Shown piece after piece: positions 2,677 to 37,001 of a DNA stretch of 43,164 bases (its first letter is position 1; each line of letters opens with the position of its first letter). A model generated the notes under the pieces. It was not told where the DNA came from, made no database searches, and worked only from the letters and a program-made list of their open reading frames with translations. Source of the stretch: a virus; the IMG/VR virus record IMGVR_UViG_3300046506_000165, positions 1 through 43,164 of that record. The stretch is one strand, 5' to 3'. The position numbers and the translations under genes were made by a program.

Positions 2677-3224
2677 ATTATGATCCTTTTAACTGGTACT
2701 GGCTTGCGGATGATGGTCGTCTCTACGCCTCTTCATCCCAGACATTGGTAAACAAGACCGATAACGCATATGTTGCGTGGAGTTCAGCCGGCTCGAAGCC
2801 GACACCATGGCCTCAGGATGAAAACGGAGAGCAGAGTAATGCTGCGCTTCAGGAAGTGCTGTCACCTTACGGCCGTTTCGTCGATCTAGCCGCCTATGCG
2901 GCCTCGAAGCGCTATTCGGTCGAAACGGGCGGCCATACCTTCAATGGTCATCTGATTGCCACTGACCGAGACAGCCAGGGAAAAATAACCAGTGTTGCAG
3001 TTGCTGCGACCACCGTCGGCTCATCCTTCTCAACGGAATGGAAGTGCGTAGACGGTACGTTCCTCACGCTCAATCATGACGACGCAATCTCCATGGCTAC
3101 TGCCGTGATGATTTTTGTCAGCAACTGCTTTGCCACCGAAGCTTCTGTCGTTGGCGCAATCACAGCCGGTACGACCACGACTATGGCGGCGATCGATTCC
3201 TCCGATTGGCCAACTGGCAGCTAA
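2673..3224 (+). CDS. DUF4376-like tail-fibre-associated protein
   Basis: This 183-residue protein begins with a short NWYWLADDGRLYAS segment. It ends in a domain resembling DUF4376 (about residues 85-183: W-K-C-V-D-G-T-F-L-T-L followed by a helix with MATAVMIFVSNCF), which is common in proteins encoded directly after phage fibres. Its function is not established; a fibre accessory or assembly role is inferred from position. The start overlaps the fibre stop (ATGA). Its stop codon overlaps that of the convergent FkbM gene (positions 3221-3224). Confidence 0.6.
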   Translation: MNYDPFNWYWLADDGRLYASSSQTLVNKTDNAYVAWSSAGSKPTPWPQDENGEQSNAALQEVLSPYGRFVDLAAYAASKRYSVETGGHTFNGHLIATDRDSQGKITSVAVAATTVGSSFSTEWKCVDGTFLTLNHDDAISMATAVMIFVSNCFATEASVVGAITAGTTTTMAAIDSSDWPTGS

Positions 3225-4045
3225 GAAAAGGCCGCAGCCACGCCTTCAAGGTTCGTGCACAACAAATCGTCGACGTTGTTGTTCACCATATTGCTGTGAA
3301 GGAACGACCACTTTTCTACGTCGGAGACAATCTGTCGATATGATTGACTCGCATGGTCGTACACATGCACATACCTGAAACTTGAGAAAATTGCAGACAG
3401 TGCGTCCTCGGGGAAAGTTCTGGCGAGGGAAGTCAGGCACCAATGATTGAACTCGAGGAGGACAAGGTCGGTCGTATAAAAGTTTGCAACACCACCTTTG
3501 AGTACATCTAACTCGAAGCCTTCGACGTCGATTTTAGCAAGGTTGATGCGGTGGCCTGACGCAATATTCAAGTTGTCCAGTCGTTCCACGGTCACTGATA
3601 TGGAGCTTTGCGCCCTATGCGCGAGGGACCCGTCAATGAGAAACGAATTGCCGCCATTGTATTGGTCAATGTCTCTGAACTTAACTGTAGTTTTTTCTTT
3701 TCCGAGCGCAAATGGAAAGAGGGAAATCTCATTATTTCCGCTTTTGTTTAATGTGATATTTCTCTCAAGTTGACGATACGTCTTCGGATGCGGTTCGAAC
3801 GCGAATATTTTCCCATTCGATAAGAGTTGATCCATGAGGATGGATGTCATGCCTATGTTAGCGCCAATATCCAGACATATAGGGGCAGGTAACACTTTGA
3901 CATATCGCTCCAAGGCAATCGTCAAGTGGGATAGCTCTCGGAGGCCGATGTGGGCGGCGTACTCGCTGGAACCCATAATTTCTATCGGCCCGTTTGGGAA
4001 ATCTTTTTTATAAATCGTCTCGACGTTGTTCAAGGCGTACCCCAT
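3221..4045 (-). CDS. FkbM-family SAM-dependent methyltransferase (moron)
   Basis: This 274-residue protein has the FkbM methyltransferase signature: motif I DIGANIG at 59-65, the acidic post-I motif FEPHP at 83-87, and KIDVEGFE at 171-178. FkbM-type enzymes transfer methyl groups from SAM to hydroxyls of sugars or small molecules, often on surface polysaccharides or lipids. The gene is reversed within a rightward late region, has its own promoter (4064-4092) and looks AT-richer than its neighbours, all typical of a moron expressed during lysogeny. I infer that it modifies host surface glycans, perhaps to exclude related phages. No clear ribosome site precedes the ATG. Its stop overlaps that of the convergent fibre-associated gene. 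Confidence 0.85.
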   Translation of the reverse strand: MGYALNNVETIYKKDFPNGPIEIMGSSEYAAHIGLRELSHLTIALERYVKVLPAPICLDIGANIGMTSILMDQLLSNGKIFAFEPHPKTYRQLERNITLNKSGNNEISLFPFALGKEKTTVKFRDIDQYNGGNSFLIDGSLAHRAQSSISVTVERLDNLNIASGHRINLAKIDVEGFELDVLKGGVANFYTTDLVLLEFNHWCLTSLARTFPEDALSAIFSSFRYVHVYDHASQSYRQIVSDVEKWSFLHSNMVNNNVDDLLCTNLEGVAAAFS

Positions 4046-17660: not shown

Positions 17661-18368
17661 TCAGGCTTGAACTGCAGGTTCGATCGGATCGGCTACGCCC
17701 ATGGCGATCTGAAAATCGTTCGCCCAATCGAGAGCCATCTTCGCCGCAAAGCCGCCTGCGCTGTCGTCGCCGGGCTTGTCGCCGTTGCGGATCATGGAGA
17801 ACCAGACTTCAGCCGGGTTCGAGGCGCTATGTTCGAGCTCGTCGTATGAGACATCTTTCGCATTCGCGATGGTGCCAACGAGGCAAGCGCACGGACCCTC
17901 ATATGTCGAGCCGTCGACGCGGCCTTCCGTCAGCGCAGCAATCAGCGCCGGTACTTCATGACGGTTCTGGGTGAGCGTCATCCAGAGATCGGCCTTGAAG
18001 CTTCGCAGGTTGGCGTAGCTCAGGTTGGCGGAGCTCAGGTCGGCGGAGCTCAGGTTGGCGGAGCTCAGGTTGGCGGAGCTCAGGTTGGCGGAGCTCAGGT
18101 TGGCGTAGCTCAGGTTGGCGGAGCTCAGGTTGGCGGAGCTCAGGTTGGCGGAGCTCAGGTTGGCGGAGCTCAGGTTGGCGGAGCTCAGGTTGGCGTAGCG
18201 CAGGTCGGCGTAGCTCAGGTCGGCGGAGCTCAGGTCGGCCTTTTCCTTGATCGCCCACTTCACGGCCAAGCCGAGCTTGAGAGAAGGAAGAGCAGATTCA
18301 TCGCAATCGATTTCGGCGGTAAATTTGATCTCGCCCGAAAATCGGTTGAGCACGTTAAACTTGATCAT
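17661..18368 (-). CDS. pentapeptide-repeat protein
   Basis: This 235-residue protein has an N-terminal module (1-43), sixteen uninterrupted A(D/N)LS(S/Y) pentapeptides (44-123) and a C-terminal module with GPCACLVGTIANAKD (about 159-173). The C-terminal module recurs in phage pentapeptide proteins. Such repeats form a right-handed quadrilateral beta-helix that can mimic duplex DNA; some relatives (Qnr, MfpA) protect or inhibit gyrase, but that role is only a possibility here. ATG 18368 is preferred to 18377 because GAAGGA lies nine bases upstream. It is the first gene behind the leftward early promoter. Confidence 0.85.
   Translation of the reverse strand: MIKFNVLNRFSGEIKFTAEIDCDESALPSLKLGLAVKWAIKEKADLSSADLSYADLRYANLSSANLSSANLSSANLSSANLSSANLSYANLSSANLSSANLSSANLSSADLSSANLSYANLRSFKADLWMTLTQNRHEVPALIAALTEGRVDGSTYEGPCACLVGTIANAKDVSYDELEHSASNPAEVWFSMIRNGDKPGDDSAGGFAAKMALDWANDFQIAMGVADPIEPAVQA
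18006..18240. repeat. 16-copy tandem 15-bp repeat inside the pentapeptide gene
   Basis: CAGGT recurs every 15 bases from 18006 to 18231. The commonest unit is CAGGTTGGCGGAGCT, with single-base variants (T/C at position 6, G/T at position 11). Near-identity of many units at the DNA level points to recent expansion by slippage or unequal recombination. The repeat keeps the opposite strand open in two frames, which creates artefactual reading frames. Confidence 0.95.
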
Positions 18369-18389
18369 GTCCCTCATTCCTTCGCTTCA

Positions 18390-18403
18390 GAGCCAGGTGG
18401 CTC
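18390..18403 (-). promoter_or_regulatory. inverted repeat in the leader of the leftward operon
   Basis: GAGCCA and TGGCTC flank a GG centre. It falls in the roughly 50-base leader between the predicted start of transcription near 18419 and the pentapeptide gene. It could form a small RNA hairpin or an antitermination site. Function is only inferred. Confidence 0.35.
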
Positions 18404-18425
18404 GGTAGTGGTTGGTATGAGGATG

Positions 18426-18454
18426 AAGATATGGAAAACTCATAGCTACGTCAA
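18426..18454 (-). promoter_or_regulatory. leftward early promoter (pL-like)
   Basis: On the reverse strand TTGACG (18454-18449) and TATCTT (18431-18426) are separated by 17 bases. Transcription would start near 18419 and drive all genes down to int. A copy of the repressor operator (18430-18444) fills the spacer and another (18462-18476) lies just upstream of the -35 element, so repression by the adjacent HTH regulator is expected. Confidence 0.75.
18430..18444. promoter_or_regulatory. repressor operator copy 1
   Basis: TATGGAAAACTCATA has TATG/CATA arms around a 7-base centre. It occupies the spacer of the leftward promoter and is identical to copy 4 near the cro-like gene. Confidence 0.75.
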
Positions 18455-18461
18455 TCGAAAA

Positions 18462-18476
18462 TATGGAAAAGTCATA
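18462..18476. promoter_or_regulatory. repressor operator copy 2
   Basis: TATGGAAAAGTCATA differs from copy 1 by one base. It is centred 32 bp (about three helical turns) from copy 1, on the upstream side of the leftward promoter, which would allow cooperative binding. Confidence 0.75.
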
Positions 18477-18566
18477 AATTATTTTCGGCGATCAGCGAGA
18501 TGATCGAATCGTTGATTTTTAGAGGTCGGTAATTTGTTCTTGTTGTGTTCCAATTTATGAGTCATC

Positions 18567-28336: not shown

Positions 28337-28948
28337 ATGCCAGTCCTGAAAAATGCACGGCATGAGAAATTTGCTCAAGCGCTTTCCATCGGCAAGACAG
28401 CAGATGACGCATATGCAGAGGCTGGGTTCAAACCTGACCGAGGAAATGCGTCCAGATTACAGCAGAAAGACAACATCAGACAACGCGTCTCCGAGCTTTT
28501 GGAATGGGAGCAGACGGTAGAGCGAAAAGCCACCGAAAAAGCGATCGATAAACTTGCCATCACGAAAGAGCGCGTCCTGGCTGAGCTAGCCAAGATCGGC
28601 TTCGCTGATATCCGCAAGGCCATCAAGTGGCAGGGCACGCTTGTAACTGAAGAGGACAACCCCGATGGCGGTGATGTCCTCGTGATCAAGAATGTCGTCA
28701 CGAACAACGTGCAGCTCGTATCGAGCGATGACATCGACGATGACACGGCCGCTGCGATTGCCGAGATCAGCCAGAACTCGACCGGCGGCATCAAGCTCAA
28801 GCTTCACGACAAGAAGGGCGCGCTCGTCGATATCGGGAAGCACCTTGGGATGTTCGTTGAGCGGCATGAGCACTCTGGGCCTGACGGCGGCCCGATAGAG
28901 ACCGAGACAAGAACATGGCGGGAAGTGCTGCGCAGCGAAAAGAGCTAG
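28337..28948 (+). CDS. terS: terminase small subunit
   Basis: This 203-residue protein has the N-terminal HTH typical of small terminases: KNARHEKFAQALSIGKTADD, AYAEAGFKPDRGNASRL. A helical oligomerisation region follows (about 55-100) and the C-terminus is like that of Terminase_2 family members (KLHDKKGALVDIGKHLGMF). It recognises phage DNA for packaging. Its 3' end overlaps the large-subunit gene by 34 bp. Confidence 0.85.
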   Translation: MPVLKNARHEKFAQALSIGKTADDAYAEAGFKPDRGNASRLQQKDNIRQRVSELLEWEQTVERKATEKAIDKLAITKERVLAELAKIGFADIRKAIKWQGTLVTEEDNPDGGDVLVIKNVVTNNVQLVSSDDIDDDTAAAIAEISQNSTGGIKLKLHDKKGALVDIGKHLGMFVERHEHSGPDGGPIETETRTWREVLRSEKS

Positions 28949-30354
28949 ACGCTACCACATATCTCACCAATCCCGCGCTGCACGACTTTTGGGAGCAGGT
29001 TTTCCTCGGACAGGCAGACATTGCAGTTCTTCACGGCGGCCGGTCCAGTTCGAAGACCCGCGACACGGCTTGCCAGTTGGTTCGCCTGGTCGACCACATC
29101 AGCGTCAGAATGCGGGTGCTTTGCATCCGGCGCTTCCAGAACCGCATCAATGATTCGGTCTACACGGAACTTAAGTGGGCGATTGCTCACCTAGGCCTTG
29201 GCGATCAGTACGATATTCAGAAGACCACGATCATCCACAAGGTGACCGGGTCTGAATTCATATTCTACGGCATCGAACGAAACCTTGAGGATATCAAGGG
29301 AACGTCCGACGTCGATATCCTCTGGGTAGAAGAGGCGGAAAAGCTTACCGAAGACCAATGGACGGTTATCGGGCCGACGATCCGCAAGGAAGATAGCCTA
29401 GCGATCCTGCTCTTCAACCCGAAGTTCGTCACCGATTATGTGTGGCAGAGCTTCGTGATCAACGTGCCACCGCACTGCGTGGTTCGGAAGATCGATTATA
29501 CGGAAAATCCGTTTCTCTCGCAGAAGGCATTGCGCGACATCGCGGCGATGCAGGAGCGAAGCCCGGAGACATTCGAGCACGTCTATGGTGGCGTGCCTCT
29601 CGGGGATAGCGAGCTTTCGATCTTCAAGCGCCGTTGGCTGGACGCCTGCGTTGACGCCCATAAGGTTCTGAAGATCGAACTGACAGGCCGCAACATCATC
29701 GGCTTCGACCCTGCCGACGACGGCGAGGACAAGAGCGCGACGGCCGATAAGATTAGCGGCATCTTCGTCGATGCGGACGACTGGTCTTCGGACAAAGACG
29801 AGCTCGTCCAGAACGCCAAGCGGGTATGGGCCAAGGCAAAGAACGCTGGCGCGATGGTTTCCTACGACACGATCGGCGTCGGTGCCTTCGTCGGTGGATA
29901 TATCGATGAGCAGAACGAGGTCAACGGGGCGAAGGTAAAGCACTATGCGTTCCACGCCGGTGGAAGCGTGATGGACGGTGACAAGCCAAGCGACCCCTTC
30001 AACAAGAACAGCCCTTTGAACAAGGACGAGTATCTGAATCTGAAGTCTCAGGCTTGGGCGAATACCGCCCGGCGCGCGATGTTGACGTTCAACGCCGTGA
30101 CCAGGGGGCAGCCGATTAAGCCAGAGGACGTTCTGTCATTCTCGTCCGCCATTGAGGCCAAGAAGCTGGACGCGCTGTTTACTGAGCTCTGCGTGCCTTG
30201 GTGGGTCGAGACAGAAGGCAAAAAGCGGGTTGTTCCGAAGGCGAAGCTGAAGAAGGACTTAGGTGTCAAGTCTCACAACTTGGCCGATGCTGTGATTGCT
30301 GCCGACAACGTGCATATCACCGGATCGACCTACACGCTGGAACACATAAGGTAA
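28915..30354 (+). CDS. terL: terminase large subunit
   Basis: This 479-residue protein has a Walker A motif at 41-48 (GGRSSSKT), Walker B with catalytic Glu near 135-142 (ILWVEEAEKL) and the C-terminal nuclease residues in GFDPADDG (about 263-270), SYDTIGVGAF and SHNLADAVIAAD. It belongs to the Terminase_3/PBSX-like group. It is the ATPase and nuclease motor that packages DNA through the portal. Length is normal. Confidence 0.95.
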   Translation: MAGSAAQRKELDATTYLTNPALHDFWEQVFLGQADIAVLHGGRSSSKTRDTACQLVRLVDHISVRMRVLCIRRFQNRINDSVYTELKWAIAHLGLGDQYDIQKTTIIHKVTGSEFIFYGIERNLEDIKGTSDVDILWVEEAEKLTEDQWTVIGPTIRKEDSLAILLFNPKFVTDYVWQSFVINVPPHCVVRKIDYTENPFLSQKALRDIAAMQERSPETFEHVYGGVPLGDSELSIFKRRWLDACVDAHKVLKIELTGRNIIGFDPADDGEDKSATADKISGIFVDADDWSSDKDELVQNAKRVWAKAKNAGAMVSYDTIGVGAFVGGYIDEQNEVNGAKVKHYAFHAGGSVMDGDKPSDPFNKNSPLNKDEYLNLKSQAWANTARRAMLTFNAVTRGQPIKPEDVLSFSSAIEAKKLDALFTELCVPWWVETEGKKRVVPKAKLKKDLGVKSHNLADAVIAADNVHITGSTYTLEHIR

Positions 30355-30357
30355 CCC

Positions 30358-30510
30358 ATGGCCTGCTCTTCCTGCGAAAAGCGCCGGCAGATGCTCGCTG
30401 CTGCCAAGAAGAACGCCGGCGTCGTCGGCGTGATCAAGGCTCTACCGTCGATCGTTCGCGACACGGTGAAAAACCCGCCAAATATCAGAAGAGTGAAGCG
30501 CAATGGGTGA
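30358..30510 (+). CDS. 50-residue CxxC protein between terL and portal
   Basis: The frame begins 4 bases after terL and overlaps the portal start by 8 bp. It encodes a basic peptide with an N-terminal CSSC motif (MACSSCEKRRQMLAAAKKNA). Similar very short CxxC proteins often sit at this position in phage packaging clusters. It is easily missed because of its size. Function unknown. Confidence 0.6.
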   Translation: MACSSCEKRRQMLAAAKKNAGVVGVIKALPSIVRDTVKNPPNIRRVKRNG

Positions 30511-32326
30511 TGTGATCAAGTTCAGGGGGGTAACGGACAGCTTAAGCTCGCTCGTCGCCGGCCTTGGTGATCCCCAGCGCGACAAGATGGCAACGACATC
30601 CTATGGGTTTCAGTTGCTTGATGACCTTCAGATATTCAACATCTATCGCTCGAACTGGCTCGGCCGCAAGATGGTCGAAATCCCGGCCATGGACGCGGTG
30701 CGCAAGGGCCGTGATTGGCAGGCCCAGCAAGACCAGATCGAACTGATCGAAGCGGAAGAAAATCGCCTCGGCTTTTGGGTCAAGCTCCTTGAGGCCAAGA
30801 TCAAGGCTCGGCTCTGGGGTGGCGCTGCTATCTATATTGGAACCGGCGATGCCAACCTTATGGAGCCGCTTGATCCGGGTAGGGTTGGACGCGGCGGGAT
30901 CAAGTATCTGACTGTTCTCACGCGCCGTGATGTCATGGCCGGAGAGATCAGCCAGGACGCGACATCGCCGTTCTATGGCAAGCCGGCCTATTACCAGATC
31001 ACGGGCGAGACAGCGATGGTGAAGATCCATCCATCTCGCTTCGCTATTTTTGTCGGCGCTCCCCATTCCGACCCCTACTTGGCTATTTCCGATACGCGCG
31101 GCTGGGGCGATAGCATTCTGGAAAGCGTTTATTCGGCGATGAAGAACGCCGACGCGACGGCAGCCAACATCGCCAGCCTTGTATTTGAGGCCAATGTTGA
31201 TGTCTTCCGCATTCCGGATTTCATGTCGAGCCTGTCAGACCCTGAATATCGCAATAGATTGCTCGAAAGGTTCGGCCTGGCAGCGACAGCAAAGGGCATC
31301 AACAAGTCGCTGATCCTCGACAAGGAAGAGGAATACGAGCGCAAGCAGGTGACTTTCGCCACGCTTCCCGATGTCATGCAGAGCTTCTTACAGATGGCAG
31401 CGGGCGCCGCCGATATTCCGGTTACACGCCTCCTCGGCCAGTCTCCAGCCGGGATGAGCGCTACCGGCGACGGCGACATGAACAATTACTATGACCGAGT
31501 GTCATCTATCCAGGGCTTGGAAATGACACCGGCCCTCTACCTTCTGGATGAGTGCCTTATTCGCTCCGCCCTTGGCAGCCGACCGCCGGAAATCTTCTTT
31601 TCCTGGTCTCCGCTCAAGCAGATGACCGAGAAGGAGCTGGCTGAGATCGGCAAAATGAATGCCGAGACGGCGCAGCTCCTTCAAACATCCGGCCTGTTCA
31701 TGGCTCAGGAGCTTCGGGATGTCGTTTCGAACCAGTTTGTGGAATCTGGCTTCTATCCGGGCCTTGACCAAGTGGTTTCTGACACGGATGCAGCCGGCAA
31801 ATTTGACCTTGGGCAAGAGGCCGATCAGGAGCAGACCCAGCCGCAGCAGACAGCCGACGCCGCTCCACGGTCGCTCTACGTCAGCCGCAAGGTGACAAAC
31901 GCAGCCGAGATCATCGCATGGGCCAAGGGACAAGGTTTCGCTACGACGCTGCCCACCACCGACCTTCATGTGACGGTGATGTATTCACCCACGGCGGTCG
32001 ACTGGATGCAGGCAGGACAGGATAGCTGGAACGCTGATGGAACTCTCATCATCCCGCCCGGTGGTCCGCGCGTCGTCTCTCAGTTCGGTCAAGGTGCCAT
32101 CGTGCTTGAATTCTCCTCCGCCGCGCTATCCTGGCGCCATGAGGAGCTGAAGCGCATCGGCGCTGAGCCGACATATCCGGAATATGCGCCGCATATCACG
32201 ATCACATACGAGCCCGGCGACGTCGATGTCGACAAGGTCGAGCCGTACCGCGGCAAAATCAATCTCGGGATCGAGATCTTCGCCGAGTTGACGCCAGATT
32301 GGGCCGAAGGAGTGACAGAGGAGTGA
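30503..32326 (+). CDS. portal protein (DUF1073) with C-terminal Acb1-like 2H phosphodiesterase domain
   Basis: Residues 1-430 match DUF1073 portals (YRSNWLGRKMVEIPAMDAVR; RLWGGAAIYIG; GMSATGDGDMNNYYDRV). After a Gln/Asp-rich linker (435-455) comes a domain of about 145 residues with two H-x-T motifs, H489-V-T491 (LHVTVMYS) and H564-I-T566 (HITITYE), spaced as in 2H phosphoesterases. This pairing is known for Acb1-type anti-CBASS proteins, which hydrolyse the cyclic nucleotides that trigger CBASS defence. The portal part forms the DNA channel; the 2H part may act in the cell after synthesis. Activity is inferred. Confidence 0.9.
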   Translation: MGDVIKFRGVTDSLSSLVAGLGDPQRDKMATTSYGFQLLDDLQIFNIYRSNWLGRKMVEIPAMDAVRKGRDWQAQQDQIELIEAEENRLGFWVKLLEAKIKARLWGGAAIYIGTGDANLMEPLDPGRVGRGGIKYLTVLTRRDVMAGEISQDATSPFYGKPAYYQITGETAMVKIHPSRFAIFVGAPHSDPYLAISDTRGWGDSILESVYSAMKNADATAANIASLVFEANVDVFRIPDFMSSLSDPEYRNRLLERFGLAATAKGINKSLILDKEEEYERKQVTFATLPDVMQSFLQMAAGAADIPVTRLLGQSPAGMSATGDGDMNNYYDRVSSIQGLEMTPALYLLDECLIRSALGSRPPEIFFSWSPLKQMTEKELAEIGKMNAETAQLLQTSGLFMAQELRDVVSNQFVESGFYPGLDQVVSDTDAAGKFDLGQEADQEQTQPQQTADAAPRSLYVSRKVTNAAEIIAWAKGQGFATTLPTTDLHVTVMYSPTAVDWMQAGQDSWNADGTLIIPPGGPRVVSQFGQGAIVLEFSSAALSWRHEELKRIGAEPTYPEYAPHITITYEPGDVDVDKVEPYRGKINLGIEIFAELTPDWAEGVTEE

Positions 32327-33138
32327 TGCAAACCTATTCGATGGCCAAAATTTCCGGCCGGAAGAAGGGTGACCGCGTCATACTGCCACCGGTCAACGTC
32401 CGGCTCTCTGCGGAGAAGCAATACTATGCCGCTTTGCGGTTGATGCTGACACAGGCGGCCGCTGAGGTTCGCCAGGGCATCATCCCGAAGTATCAGAGCG
32501 AACAGGCGCAGAACCGCTTGCAGCGCTCATATCAGGCCGATGCGAGCAACGACTGGTTCATCACATTGAAGGCGCTGGTCAACCAATTGCAGCGGGTGGC
32601 GAGCGATACCGTCAATCGGATCCTGAACCTCGAGGCTGAACGGCACACCGACGCTTTCATGGCTTCGGCCAAAAGGTCGTTGGGGATCGATCTCAAGGCT
32701 GTCGTCAGGCAGGAAGACCTTGACGATTACATGCGGGCGGCGACGGCGCGGAATACCTCACTCATCACCAGCCTTGGCGATGATGTGGTCAAGCGGGTCG
32801 AGCAGACCGTCTACAGCAACAGCATCGCCGGAAATTCGGCTACGACACTGCGAAAGGCACTTCAAGAACAATTCGGGATCACCGATCGCCGCGCGAAGCT
32901 GATCGCCAGAGACCAGACGAGCAAGTTCAACGCCGATCTCAACAAGATCCGGCAGCAACAGGCCGGCGTGACCTCATATAGCTGGATGACAGCGCATGAC
33001 GAGAGAGTACGCCCTCTGCATCGATCGTTGGACGGCAAGACGTACAAATGGGGAGAGGCGACAGGCGCCGAACAAGGATTGCCACCAGGGCAGCCTATTC
33101 TTTGTCGGTGTGTCGCGCGCGGGATTGTCGAGTTCTGA
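32326..33138 (+). CDS. head morphogenesis protein (Mu F / SPP1 gp7 family)
   Basis: This 270-residue protein has the C-terminal signature of the Phage_Mu_F family: ITDRRAKLIARDQTSKFNAD, then SYSWMTAHDERVRPLHRSLD and a final LPPGQPILCRCVARGIVEF. These proteins are minor capsid components attached to the portal, sometimes ejected with DNA. ATG 32326 overlaps the portal stop (TGATG) behind a GAGGAG site. Length is typical. Confidence 0.88.
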   Translation: MQTYSMAKISGRKKGDRVILPPVNVRLSAEKQYYAALRLMLTQAAAEVRQGIIPKYQSEQAQNRLQRSYQADASNDWFITLKALVNQLQRVASDTVNRILNLEAERHTDAFMASAKRSLGIDLKAVVRQEDLDDYMRAATARNTSLITSLGDDVVKRVEQTVYSNSIAGNSATTLRKALQEQFGITDRRAKLIARDQTSKFNADLNKIRQQQAGVTSYSWMTAHDERVRPLHRSLDGKTYKWGEATGAEQGLPPGQPILCRCVARGIVEF

Positions 33139-33399: not shown

Positions 33400-35829
33400 A
33401 TGCTCGTCAAGACCGTCACGACCGTTGTCACCACAGATAGCACCGGCAAGCCAGTGGATGCGATCCCAGTGCGCAATGCGGTAGCAGGGGAGACGGATGC
33501 TGCAGGCCGACCGATAACTCCTATTGCGATTACTGAGGATCCTTCAGGGGTTCCAATTCGTGTGGTGGTTGGCAACGCGGCGCAGAACAGTGCGGGGCAG
33601 TGGGTCGATAGTATCCCGATCCAAGGAGGCCAGCCGGCCATCGGGGAAACGATTGGGATCGTTGGCAATCGCTTCCAAGTCGCAACAGCCGTTGGAACCA
33701 TTCAGCAGAACGCAACATTTCGTCGCGTCCATTACGCTCATCCTCTTGCCGCGATCACTGATCTCCAGTGTGTCGATAGTGCATGGTATATTTCGGACGG
33801 TACTCTTCAACCAACGGCCGCGTCCTCGCGAACAATCAAACGATATATTGAATATCCAGATGGCGTGTTCCATCAGGTTCTTTGGTCCGGTTCTGGTTCC
33901 AAACTGATAGACACCGGATCTTTCAAGTCCGATGTTGTGCTTTCATCGGTCACTGGATTGCCTCTTGTGATCGCGTCTGGCGCGAAGTTTGCCGAGCGCA
34001 CTGTAAACCTGAACGCGGCGGTAACGAGCTTCCCGTTGATCGAAATGCCGGCTGCTCATGACGTTCTTGGTCTTGAGGACGGCGGCACAGGCACGACAGA
34101 CTTAGGCAACTCGGGGACGATTTCTCCGGGTACTGGTGTTAACTCATTCGGATCTGTCGCGATCGTCGGGACAATTGCCAAAGGTCAGTCTGGCGCCTCC
34201 GCAAAGAGCTACGTCCTCGTCGGCGATAGCATCATGTTTGGCCAAGGCGATGTCTCCAGTGTTGGCCCCAAGGGCGGCAGTGGTTGGGGCGCTCGCCTGC
34301 TCGATGCGACTGCCGTGCCGTACCTTAAGATAGCTAAAAAGGGTCAAGGGGCTCAGCACTTTGCAGGGGCAACCGCTAGCATCACAGCGCTGCTCTCTCT
34401 CATTTCTTACTCTGATGTGGTCTGCGAGCACGGTGTGAACGATCTACGTCTTGGTCGCACCGCAGCGCAGATCCTCACAGACCAGCAAACCATCTATGGC
34501 CTGTTTGGGACGGCCAATATTTTCCAAGCCACCATTACTCCTCGCACCGAAAGCACGAGTGGAAACTATACCTCTGTCGCGGACCAGACACCGAAGACGG
34601 ACGGCAACATGGCCGACCTAACACCGCTTAACACATCGATACGGGCTACCCCGGCCAATGTTGACAGCGTGCTTGAAGTAGCGGACGCGGCTATGTCTGC
34701 CAGAAACAGCAACGTTTGGAGCGGACCATTCCCGCCCGTCCTCGACGGCACGCATCCGACATCAGCGAAGGCGGCTGCAATGGCTGCTTCCCTCAGTCTC
34801 AACATAATCCAAGCTCTTCCGGGCGCTGTGGGAAGCTTGGCTTTCACGGGTGCTGGCAACACCACGCTCGCCTTCTCATTCACACAGCCAACTATTGGCT
34901 CGAACCCGATAACTTATCTCGTCGAGTACAAGCGGATGATCGACAGTTCTTGGACGCAGTTCGTGACGGGCTCATCTGCCCTGACAGGCACAATTACCGG
35001 GCTGACCGCCAATACTAGCTATGATGTGCGCGTTACCCCGTCGAACAGCGCAGGCACTGGATCCGCTTCTACCATTACCCAGTCGACAATCGCGACTTTC
35101 CAGCCCCTCGATCTTGGGGCAAGCCTCGGCTACGCATGGGATACCAACGACACGGCCAAGGTTCTCGATACCTCTGGTACATTGACTCAGATGGGCGAGA
35201 AGTATTCAAGCAACGTCCTCGGCATTGGCGGCTCTCCAACCGTCATCACCAATGGCGGGCAAACTGGTAACAAGCGTGTGATCGATTTCCCCGCTGGGAC
35301 CTACCTGAAGGGAAGCTCGTTCCAAGGTATTCTTGATATCCCAGACGGGTCGACGGCTACCTCACAGTTCACAGTGGTCGAAGCCGGCAAGATGCAGGCT
35401 GGCGTCACAAACCGGCTTAGCTTCTGGGGTACCGCTGGCGCCGCTACGCTGGCTAGCTTCTCATTCCGAGCCACTACGACAAACCGTGGCCCTTCTATTA
35501 TTGAAGTGAACAGCCGAGCTGCCGTAACCGCGTTCCAAACGGCTGTTGAGACGGCAAACTATCATGTTTTCACCACGATCAAGAACGGCACAAGCATCAT
35601 ATTCAGAGTTGACGGTGTGCAGGTAGCGACAGCCTCACTCGTCGGCGATGGTAGCTGGAACTTCAACGACTTCTATATTGGCACATCTTCCGGAGCAGCT
35701 ACGCCAGGCACGCCAGCGACGGTCTTCCCGCCGGACGCATACTCAGGCCTCGTTATTGCCCGCACTGCACTAACCGGTGTGGATCTTACGAACATCGAAG
35801 CGTGGGTCGGCGCGACAGCCGGTCTTTGA
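33400..35829 (+). CDS. SGNH/GDSL-hydrolase adhesin with FnIII and lectin-like domains
   Basis: This 809-residue protein has a beta-rich N-terminal region (1-250), an SGNH hydrolase domain (about 265-470) and an FnIII domain (about 473-562, ITGLTANTSYDVRVTP). A C-terminal jelly-roll/LamG-like region follows (about 570-809). Catalytic blocks are visible: GDS at 275-277 with nucleophile S277, G-V-N-D at 345-348, and D449 with H452 in DGTHP. Such enzymes remove O-acetyl groups from polysaccharides. It lies between head genes rather than with the fibres, so it may be a capsid-borne or displaced receptor-binding esterase. Confidence 0.8.
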   Translation: MLVKTVTTVVTTDSTGKPVDAIPVRNAVAGETDAAGRPITPIAITEDPSGVPIRVVVGNAAQNSAGQWVDSIPIQGGQPAIGETIGIVGNRFQVATAVGTIQQNATFRRVHYAHPLAAITDLQCVDSAWYISDGTLQPTAASSRTIKRYIEYPDGVFHQVLWSGSGSKLIDTGSFKSDVVLSSVTGLPLVIASGAKFAERTVNLNAAVTSFPLIEMPAAHDVLGLEDGGTGTTDLGNSGTISPGTGVNSFGSVAIVGTIAKGQSGASAKSYVLVGDSIMFGQGDVSSVGPKGGSGWGARLLDATAVPYLKIAKKGQGAQHFAGATASITALLSLISYSDVVCEHGVNDLRLGRTAAQILTDQQTIYGLFGTANIFQATITPRTESTSGNYTSVADQTPKTDGNMADLTPLNTSIRATPANVDSVLEVADAAMSARNSNVWSGPFPPVLDGTHPTSAKAAAMAASLSLNIIQALPGAVGSLAFTGAGNTTLAFSFTQPTIGSNPITYLVEYKRMIDSSWTQFVTGSSALTGTITGLTANTSYDVRVTPSNSAGTGSASTITQSTIATFQPLDLGASLGYAWDTNDTAKVLDTSGTLTQMGEKYSSNVLGIGGSPTVITNGGQTGNKRVIDFPAGTYLKGSSFQGILDIPDGSTATSQFTVVEAGKMQAGVTNRLSFWGTAGAATLASFSFRATTTNRGPSIIEVNSRAAVTAFQTAVETANYHVFTTIKNGTSIIFRVDGVQVATASLVGDGSWNFNDFYIGTSSGAATPGTPATVFPPDAYSGLVIARTALTGVDLTNIEAWVGATAGL

Positions 35830-35846
35830 CGGGCAGGAGGTTATCC

Positions 35847-37001
35847 ATGCAATTCACTGATAAGCTGACGCTCGACGGAGCAATTCGTCGGACGGCTGAC
35901 GGCTACGGTGTGGTTTCGGCCAAGGTTGCCCGCGCAGGCAATGTTCAGGTTTACCTTGGCTCTGAAGTCGGGGCGAACGACAAAGCCACGGTGCGCGTCT
36001 ACCGGCCCGAAAGCGAGGTGTTCAAGAAGGACGCTATTGCGAGCTACGCCGGCGTGCCGGTAACGGTTGGTCATCCTAAGAACGGCGTATCTGCCGACAC
36101 ATGGAAGGACTTGGCCGTCGGAGAGGTCGGAGATGACGTTCTTCGCGATGGCGAGTTCGTCCGCGTCCCGATGATGCTTCGCGATGCCAGAGCCATCAAG
36201 ACGGTCGAGGACGGTGTCCGTGAGCTTTCTATGGGCTACAGCGCCGAAGTCACGTTCTCGGATGGTGAGACGCCATCGGGCGAGCGTTACGACGCCATCA
36301 TGTCCGATTTCAAGATGAATCACGTCGCGATCGTCGGTAAGGCGCGCGGCGGCGAAGAACTTCGCATCGGTGACGGTGCGGATAAGTGGGGCGCTAGTCC
36401 CGTCAACCTCCAGACAGCAGACGAAAGGACAAGCCCCATGGCTGACAATCTGCGTAAAATGCTGGTCGATGGCTTGCAGGTCGAGACGACCGATGCAGGC
36501 GCAGCGGCCATTGAAAAGCTGATGAAGGACCTTCAGTCCTCGGCGGCCAAGTTCTCCGACGCCGAAACCACGCACAAGGCAGCTATCGCCGCCAAGGACG
36601 AGGAAATTGGCACTCTCAAGGCTGAAAACCAGAAGCTGAAGGACGCAACTCCCAAGCCGGCTGATCTCGACAAGCTGGTTGCCGATCGCGCTACCCTGGT
36701 CACCACGATCAAGGCCATCGACAGCAAGATCGAAGTGTCGGGCGTATCCGATAGCGATCTGCGCCGCGCCGCCGTCAAATCCAAGCTCGGCGACGAGATG
36801 GTCAAGGACGCCTCCGACGCGGAAATCACCGGCATGTTCAAGGCGATCGCCAAGGACGTGAAGACGGCCGATCCGTTCGCCACCGTCGTCAAGGACGGCC
36901 TGAAGCAGGCCGACCCGAGCAATTCCAACGCCGCTCACGCCTCCATGGTCACTGATATGTCCACGGCATGGATGGGCAACCAGAACAAGGGAGCCGTCTA
37001 A
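35847..37001 (+). CDS. DUF2213 protein: prohead protease with scaffold-like C-terminus
   Basis: This 384-residue protein starts at ATG 35847 behind AGGAGG. Residues 1-185 match DUF2213 (VYRPESEVFKKDAIASYAGV, PVTVGHPKNGVSADTWKDLA, ELSMGYSAEVTF, MNHVAIVGKARGG). The C-terminal half is a long charged coiled coil typical of scaffolds. An internal ATG at 36438 (residue 198) has AAAGGA eight bases upstream, so a separate 187-residue scaffold could be made from the same frame, as with lambda C/Nu3. It precedes the decoration and capsid genes. Confidence 0.75.
   Translation: MQFTDKLTLDGAIRRTADGYGVVSAKVARAGNVQVYLGSEVGANDKATVRVYRPESEVFKKDAIASYAGVPVTVGHPKNGVSADTWKDLAVGEVGDDVLRDGEFVRVPMMLRDARAIKTVEDGVRELSMGYSAEVTFSDGETPSGERYDAIMSDFKMNHVAIVGKARGGEELRIGDGADKWGASPVNLQTADERTSPMADNLRKMLVDGLQVETTDAGAAAIEKLMKDLQSSAAKFSDAETTHKAAIAAKDEEIGTLKAENQKLKDATPKPADLDKLVADRATLVTTIKAIDSKIEVSGVSDSDLRRAAVKSKLGDEMVKDASDAEITGMFKAIAKDVKTADPFATVVKDGLKQADPSNSNAAHASMVTDMSTAWMGNQNKGAV

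Follow-up and report, generated by a model that had tools for sequence, protein, structure and literature searches.

A phage portal protein with a predicted C-terminal Acb1-type phosphodiesterase domain, an optional module repeatedly gained or lost among related portals

DNA is packed into the virus head through a ring formed by the portal protein, and one open reading frame in a virus record of 43,164 bases (hereafter the window, meaning this whole stretch of DNA) joins such a protein by a flexible tether to an intact-looking enzyme of the kind that breaks down bacterial alarm molecules. This raises the questions of whether the appended domain is an intact enzyme, whether the portal needs it, and when and where an anti-defence enzyme tethered to a portal would work.

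The open reading frame at 30503-32326 (this and the following coordinates are those of the window, on the plus strand unless otherwise indicated) is intact, starts with ATG and encodes a portal-Acb1 fusion protein of 607 amino acids. Residues 43-391 (30629-31675) form the portal core of the Phage_portal_3/DUF1073/HI1409 family; the Pfam profile PF06381 was matched with an E-value of 4.7e-105 (351.6 bits, cut-off 33.8), consistent with the original prediction of a complete DUF1073 portal, and the NCBIfam profile TIGR01555 was also matched above its cut-off (288.9 bits). PHROGs and NCBIfam agreed that the portal is of the HI1409/phrog_146 kind, and the core gave a fold match to 8hds_A (E = 2.7e-34). 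The full-length profile, the portal fold and the gene context between the large terminase subunit and MuF place the protein in Phage_portal_3. Residues 457-602 (31871-32308) match the Acb1 profile PF23474 (E = 1.9e-38, 131.9 bits, cut-off 27), and this 2H domain lies C-terminal to the portal domain within the single open reading frame. When the domain alone was searched, a check suggested with the original prediction, it matched phrog_755, a family that carries the label 'RNA ligase' in PHROGs, and the sequence of FBB1 Acb1 (E = 6e-11). The full two-domain protein matches the portal of phage Pam3 over residues 11-604 (E = 1.7e-174), and this match and that to FBB1 Acb1 put the two-domain assignment far beyond chance. 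PADLOC returned no matches for ten proteins of the window, the portal among them.

We modelled the domain with AlphaFold2 using 68 sequences, and obtained a confident 2H fold (mean pLDDT 92.0, pTM 0.86) in which both His-x-Thr motifs stand at the starts of strands. The two best matches among solved structures were FBB1 Acb1 entries, 7t26 (E = 1.5e-9, TM 0.68/0.75) and 7t27 (E = 2.9e-9), with TM scores of 0.67-0.75 over the two; the phage BCSR5 phosphodiesterase came next, then Escherichia coli LigT (E = 1e-4) and human Usb1 (4h7w, E = 4e-3). This comparison, which had also been proposed as a check, excluded an unrelated fold. There are only three H-x-[TS] triplets in the whole protein, and two of them, H489-V490-T491 (31967-31975) and H564-I565-T566 (32192-32200), are aligned with H44/T46 and H113/T115 of T4 Acb1, respectively, so that the two catalytic motifs that had been proposed hold up. 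We examined their conservation in an alignment of the window domain with T4 and FBB1 Acb1 and 147 portal-fused relatives. In the first motif the histidine is present in 145 and the threonine in 146 of the 147 relatives; in the second, the histidine is present in 146, and the threonine position holds threonine in 120 and serine in 26. One relative (L110) is truncated before the first motif; of the 146 complete rows that remain, 145 retain the tetrad, even though the mean column identity is no more than 58%. In one fused relative (L170:4001-5845) the first catalytic histidine has been lost (H489R) with the rest intact. The curated profile, the fold and the conserved tetrad bear out the proposed Acb1-type 2H membership, and point to an intact phosphodiesterase domain of the Acb1-type 2H family at the C-terminus, with predicted catalysis.

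The residues that contact the nucleotide in T4 Acb1, including the base-stacking aromatics Y12, W74, F107 and W147, are partly retained. Y459 (31877-31879) is the equivalent of the base-stacking Y12 (PMC9117128) and is tyrosine in 146/147 relatives, and the alignment places Y558 as an aromatic residue at the position of F107. W600 (32300-32302) corresponds to the lid residue W147, with tryptophan in 90/147 relatives and a gap in 49, in which part of the lid is missing. The position of E141, which contacts adenine in T4 Acb1 (PMC9117128), is occupied by A594 (32282-32284), with E595 adjacent; glutamate was found there in 105 and alanine in 21 of the 147 relatives. The window protein thus departs from T4 Acb1 at a specificity residue that defines neither the fold nor the tetrad. 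The column of W74 holds S526, in a hairpin that is aligned uncertainly, and the fused clade has invariant residues of its own (D500-W501, R523 and W544-R545). Judging from these replacements and clade-specific invariants, the substrate of the window domain may differ from that of T4 Acb1.

The gene lies among packaging and head genes, and its nearest portals from sequenced genomes belong to Rhizobiaceae. The upstream neighbour encodes the large terminase subunit (28915-30354; phrog_3717, phrog_2), and the small terminase subunit is also encoded upstream. Downstream, the ATG of a MuF-type head morphogenesis gene (32326-33138; PF04233, E = 1.8e-17; phrog_324) overlaps the portal stop codon in TGATG, although the ORF list begins this frame at an upstream TTG (32299). 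An 809-residue GDSL-esterase-like/fn3 protein (33400-35829; phrog_8480) separates MuF from a DUF2213 head maturation protease (35802-37001; PF09979, E = 1.2e-50; phrog_530), which is a candidate for cutting the linker described below; a lysophospholipase L1-like esterase is encoded near the portal in Rhizobium phage RHEph04 as well. Along with the genes for the tail sheath and the major head protein, these neighbours make up a myophage head operon. Elsewhere in the window, we noted on the minus strand a pentapeptide-repeat protein (17661-18377; PF00805, E = 2.9e-21) with a long repetitive open frame opposite (17958-18503), and an FkbM-type methyltransferase (3221-4045; PF05050, E = 1.4e-15) that adjoins a tail fibre gene of the other strand.

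To see how constant the fusion is, we scanned genomes with the full-length portal alignment and obtained 80 loci. The domain was present in 35 and absent in 45 (46 domain-less ORFs, L054 being counted twice in the raw tally). Where the domain is missing, the portal reading frame stops just past the acidic linker and is followed by the next gene. No Acb1 remnant was detected within 2.5 kb downstream of them in three frames of an unfiltered search, apart from one spurious 5-bit match. A tree of 150 portal cores required at least 23 changes in domain presence, 18 of which were forced by well-supported branches alone; these counts do not separate gain from loss, and, with viral loci chosen for their resemblance to the window, the share of portals that bear the domain is not to be read as an unbiased frequency. 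Portals with and without the domain can be nearly identical in the core, as in the pairs L022/L053 (95%), L158/L044 (97%) and L168/L080 (97%), and what sets L093 apart from L104 is a single in-frame block that lies between linker and stop codon, with the same TGATG overlap with the MuF gene in both. Rhizobium tropici PTD1 has both kinds in one genome (L014 with the domain and L070 without). The domain is therefore dispensable for the portal, and is an optional module that has been gained or lost repeatedly. Where present, it evolves under constraint. The median pairwise dN/dS (Nei-Gojobori) was 0.097 for the domain and 0.074 for the portal, or 0.063 and 0.052, respectively, on the 72 pairs usable for both, showing that the domain is maintained by purifying selection nearly as tightly as the portal.

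We also compared the histories of the two parts. Over 145 fused relatives, identity of the domain to that of the window showed no positive relation with identity of the portal (Spearman -0.39). The nearest domain (93%, an identical contig aside) is found in L102 on a portal of only 51% identity, and the nearest portal (77%), that of L011, bears a domain of 52% identity. In a set of 46 rows, AU tests found the portal data to contradict a supported domain clade of ten (P = 6e-7) and the domain data to contradict a portal clade of eleven (P = 3e-46). As the groups were chosen after the identities had been viewed, these P values are descriptive; the differences in log-likelihood, at about 400 units, are nonetheless very large. 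The comparisons indicate that the domain and the portal have different histories and that the domain has been traded between otherwise different portals.

The scan brought up some further arrangements. Two relatives (L198:1848-4223 and L245:2591-4996; 792 and 802 amino acids) are portal-Acb1-PBECR3 triple fusions, in which the PBECR3 phage nuclease domain following Acb1 was detected with E-values of 7e-12 (above the cut-off) and 7e-5 (below it). In L125:4001-5638 and L057:4663-6225, Acb1 is replaced by another short C-terminal module with a common LNGAQ...ALxLIxxAFP motif, for which no Pfam match was obtained in L125. Two genes annotated as 'prohead protease' proved to encode free-standing Acb1-type proteins: one in Edwardsiella phage ZHS (L005:2116-2712; Pfam Acb1, E = 2.8e-22), where it belongs to the packaging operon and directly precedes a PF06381 portal, and one in Roseobacter phage DSS3P8 (L004:4989-5438), assigned by a match to our own profile.

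The way in which the domain is attached bears on its place of action. Residues 431-456 (31793-31870) are rich in acidic residues and glutamine, in accordance with the Q/D-rich linker described originally, and vary in sequence and length among relatives; residues 433-452 fall below pLDDT 50 in the full-length AlphaFold2 model, as expected of a disordered linker. At the junction with the domain there is a D-A-A-P-R motif (residues 452-456; 31856-31870) that is constant although the preceding linker is variable (D452 in 143/143 fused relatives, P455 in 137/143, R or K456 in 136/143). This motif may be a protease site or, just as well, the margin of the domain fold. The Pam3 portal sequence includes an Acb1 domain at residues 472-618; however, the deposited chain (8hds) models only 442 of the 621 residues, none of them from the domain, and our domain, used as the query of a fold search, recovered weaker relatives but not this chain. 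In that virion structure the Pam3 domain is thus flexible, has been averaged out or was removed. A disordered tether, together with the absence from the Pam3 model, suggests that the enzyme can act on its own, apart from the ring. In portals generally, the C-terminal crown faces the capsid lumen, and whole subunits are not known to be ejected. A late role in the cytosol is therefore the simplest reading, and delivery by the virion would need cleavage of the linker.

Taken together, we consider that the domain is probably an accessory anti-CBASS-type phosphodiesterase displayed on portal subunits and acting mainly in the cytosol late in infection; activity, substrate, timing and place are all inferred, and the original interpretation, which left open late cytosolic subunits or the portal ring of the virion, is partly supported as a whole. 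The domain would hydrolyse the cyclic dinucleotides or trinucleotides with which CBASS-like defences signal alarm, presumably by the metal-free HxT/HxT mechanism of T4 Acb1. T4 Acb1 and nine homologues cleave 3'3'-cGAMP and cAAA (PMC9117128); for portal-fused Acb1, we found no assay in the literature searched, which lacked most subscription papers and preprints. Since the portal would be expressed from the late packaging operon, free or freshly assembled subunits in the cytosol could display the enzyme on its flexible tether just as structural proteins build up, and the tethered domains that end up in or next to the capsid lumen after incorporation of the ring into heads would be incidental. 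The combination of a conserved tetrad with purifying selection, dispensability and horizontal exchange would be expected of an accessory counter-defence enzyme, and lifts the functional interpretation beyond simple membership of the family.

Hosts gave no clear signal. SMODS CD-NTases (PF18144) were found above the cut-off in 5/34 hosts of domain-bearing prophages versus 4/44 of the others (Fisher P = 0.49), and in 8/34 versus 4/44 at the looser threshold of E <= 0.001 (P = 0.11), a comparison in which host CD-NTase content is a weak proxy of CBASS pressure and prophage hosts stand poorly for attacked hosts. We also considered Panoptes as a possible force selecting for loss of the domain. Plasmid-expressed acb1 lowered colony formation, but deletion of T4 acb1 left Panoptes defence unchanged (PMC12657218).

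Other readings have to be weighed against a late cytosolic enzyme. The twelve domains might instead be packed inside the head, released from the portal when the head maturation protease cuts the linker, and injected along with the DNA in the manner of T4 internal proteins, so as to destroy alarm nucleotides as infection begins. A similar proposal, for packaging and injection of MuF- or portal-fused 2H domains against nucleotide-based immunity, is made in the available part of Iyer et al. 2022 (PMC9503650), and delivery by the virion would fit the DUF2213 protease in the window, the disordered linker with its invariant junction motif, the domain missing from the Pam3 model, and the related portals that end in Acb1 and PBECR3, the latter a domain type thought to be injected (PMC5512222, in the part available). 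However, an intact subunit stays in the capsid, making cleavage indispensable, flexibility alone accounts for the missing Pam3 residues, and DAAPR may be merely a domain edge; we therefore regard virion delivery as unlikely. A broader version sees the portal C-terminus as a docking place for interchangeable counter-defence modules (none, Acb1, Acb1 with PBECR3, or the other short module). In the virion, cleavage by the head maturation protease at the conserved motif that closes the linker would release Acb1, which would leave together with the DNA and disarm nucleotide alarms before any phage gene is expressed; this proposal as a whole is unlikely.

The domain could also be an RNase or a 2',3'-cyclic phosphodiesterase working on RNA ends, in RNA repair or decay of host RNA, rather than on cyclic oligonucleotides. 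The 2H superfamily includes LigT and Usb1, the weaker fold matches above, the PHROGs label points the same way, two base contacts of T4 Acb1 are not conserved, and RNase action is offered as an alternative in the accessible text of Iyer et al. 2017 (PMC5512222). Nevertheless, sequence and fold are far nearer to Acb1 than to LigT or Usb1, and the equivalent of Y12, almost invariant among relatives, and the aromatic residue at F107 are retained, so that an RNA-directed role seems decidedly unlikely. It is highly improbable that the domain is structural, serving packaging or the architecture of the crown, or is a decaying inactive remnant: it is a covalent part of an essential structural protein and L170 has lost the first catalytic histidine, but the many related portals without it, the Pam3 portal model in which it is not resolved, the tetrad kept in all but one of the complete relatives and the dN/dS of about 0.10 argue otherwise.

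Portals that are almost the same except for one in-frame cassette encoding a predicted immune-evasion enzyme amount to a clean natural experiment. Such pairs allow one to test when a tethered anti-defence enzyme works, late in the cytosol or early from the virion, and what selects for its carriage or loss. In addition, the annotation 'portal protein' can hide an immune antagonist, and counts of anti-CBASS genes limited to free-standing Acb1 miss many.

The portal-Acb1 architecture itself is already known, and the window is a further instance. In the parts of the two papers available, Iyer et al. described fusions of 2H domains to MuF or portal proteins and suggested RNase action or degradation of defence nucleotides (2017; PMC5512222), and again reported the portal fusion and proposed action against SMODS, cyclic mononucleotide and CRISPR signalling (2022; PMC9503650). 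The architecture and the idea of countering nucleotide signalling are the same as ours; those parts deal with 2H domains in general, without repeated gain and loss or exchange between portals. Acb1 was characterized by Hobbs et al. 2022, in whose text the word 'portal' does not occur (PMC9117128). Repeated gain, loss and exchange of portal-fused Acb1 had no earlier report in the literature that we searched, again mostly without subscription papers and preprints. What is added here is the conservation of the tetrad, the purifying selection, the repeated gain and loss, the exchange, and the absence of the domain from the Pam3 portal model.

Compared with known proteins, the window domain shares with T4 and FBB1 Acb1 (7t26, 7t27) the PF23474 profile, the 2H fold, the HxT/HxT tetrad, Y12, the aromatic residue at F107 and the lid residue W147, whereas those are free-standing proteins of 152 amino acids, and at the aligned positions the window protein lacks E141 and W74 of T4. 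The portal of the Pseudanabaena phage Pam3 (PDB 8hds) is a full-length homologue with both domains, and differs in having an HxT/HxS tetrad. The domain-less portals (for example L019, L104 and L053) have cores that reach 97% identity with the cores of relatives bearing the domain, and the same neighbouring genes, but stop directly after the acidic linker, without a remnant of Acb1.
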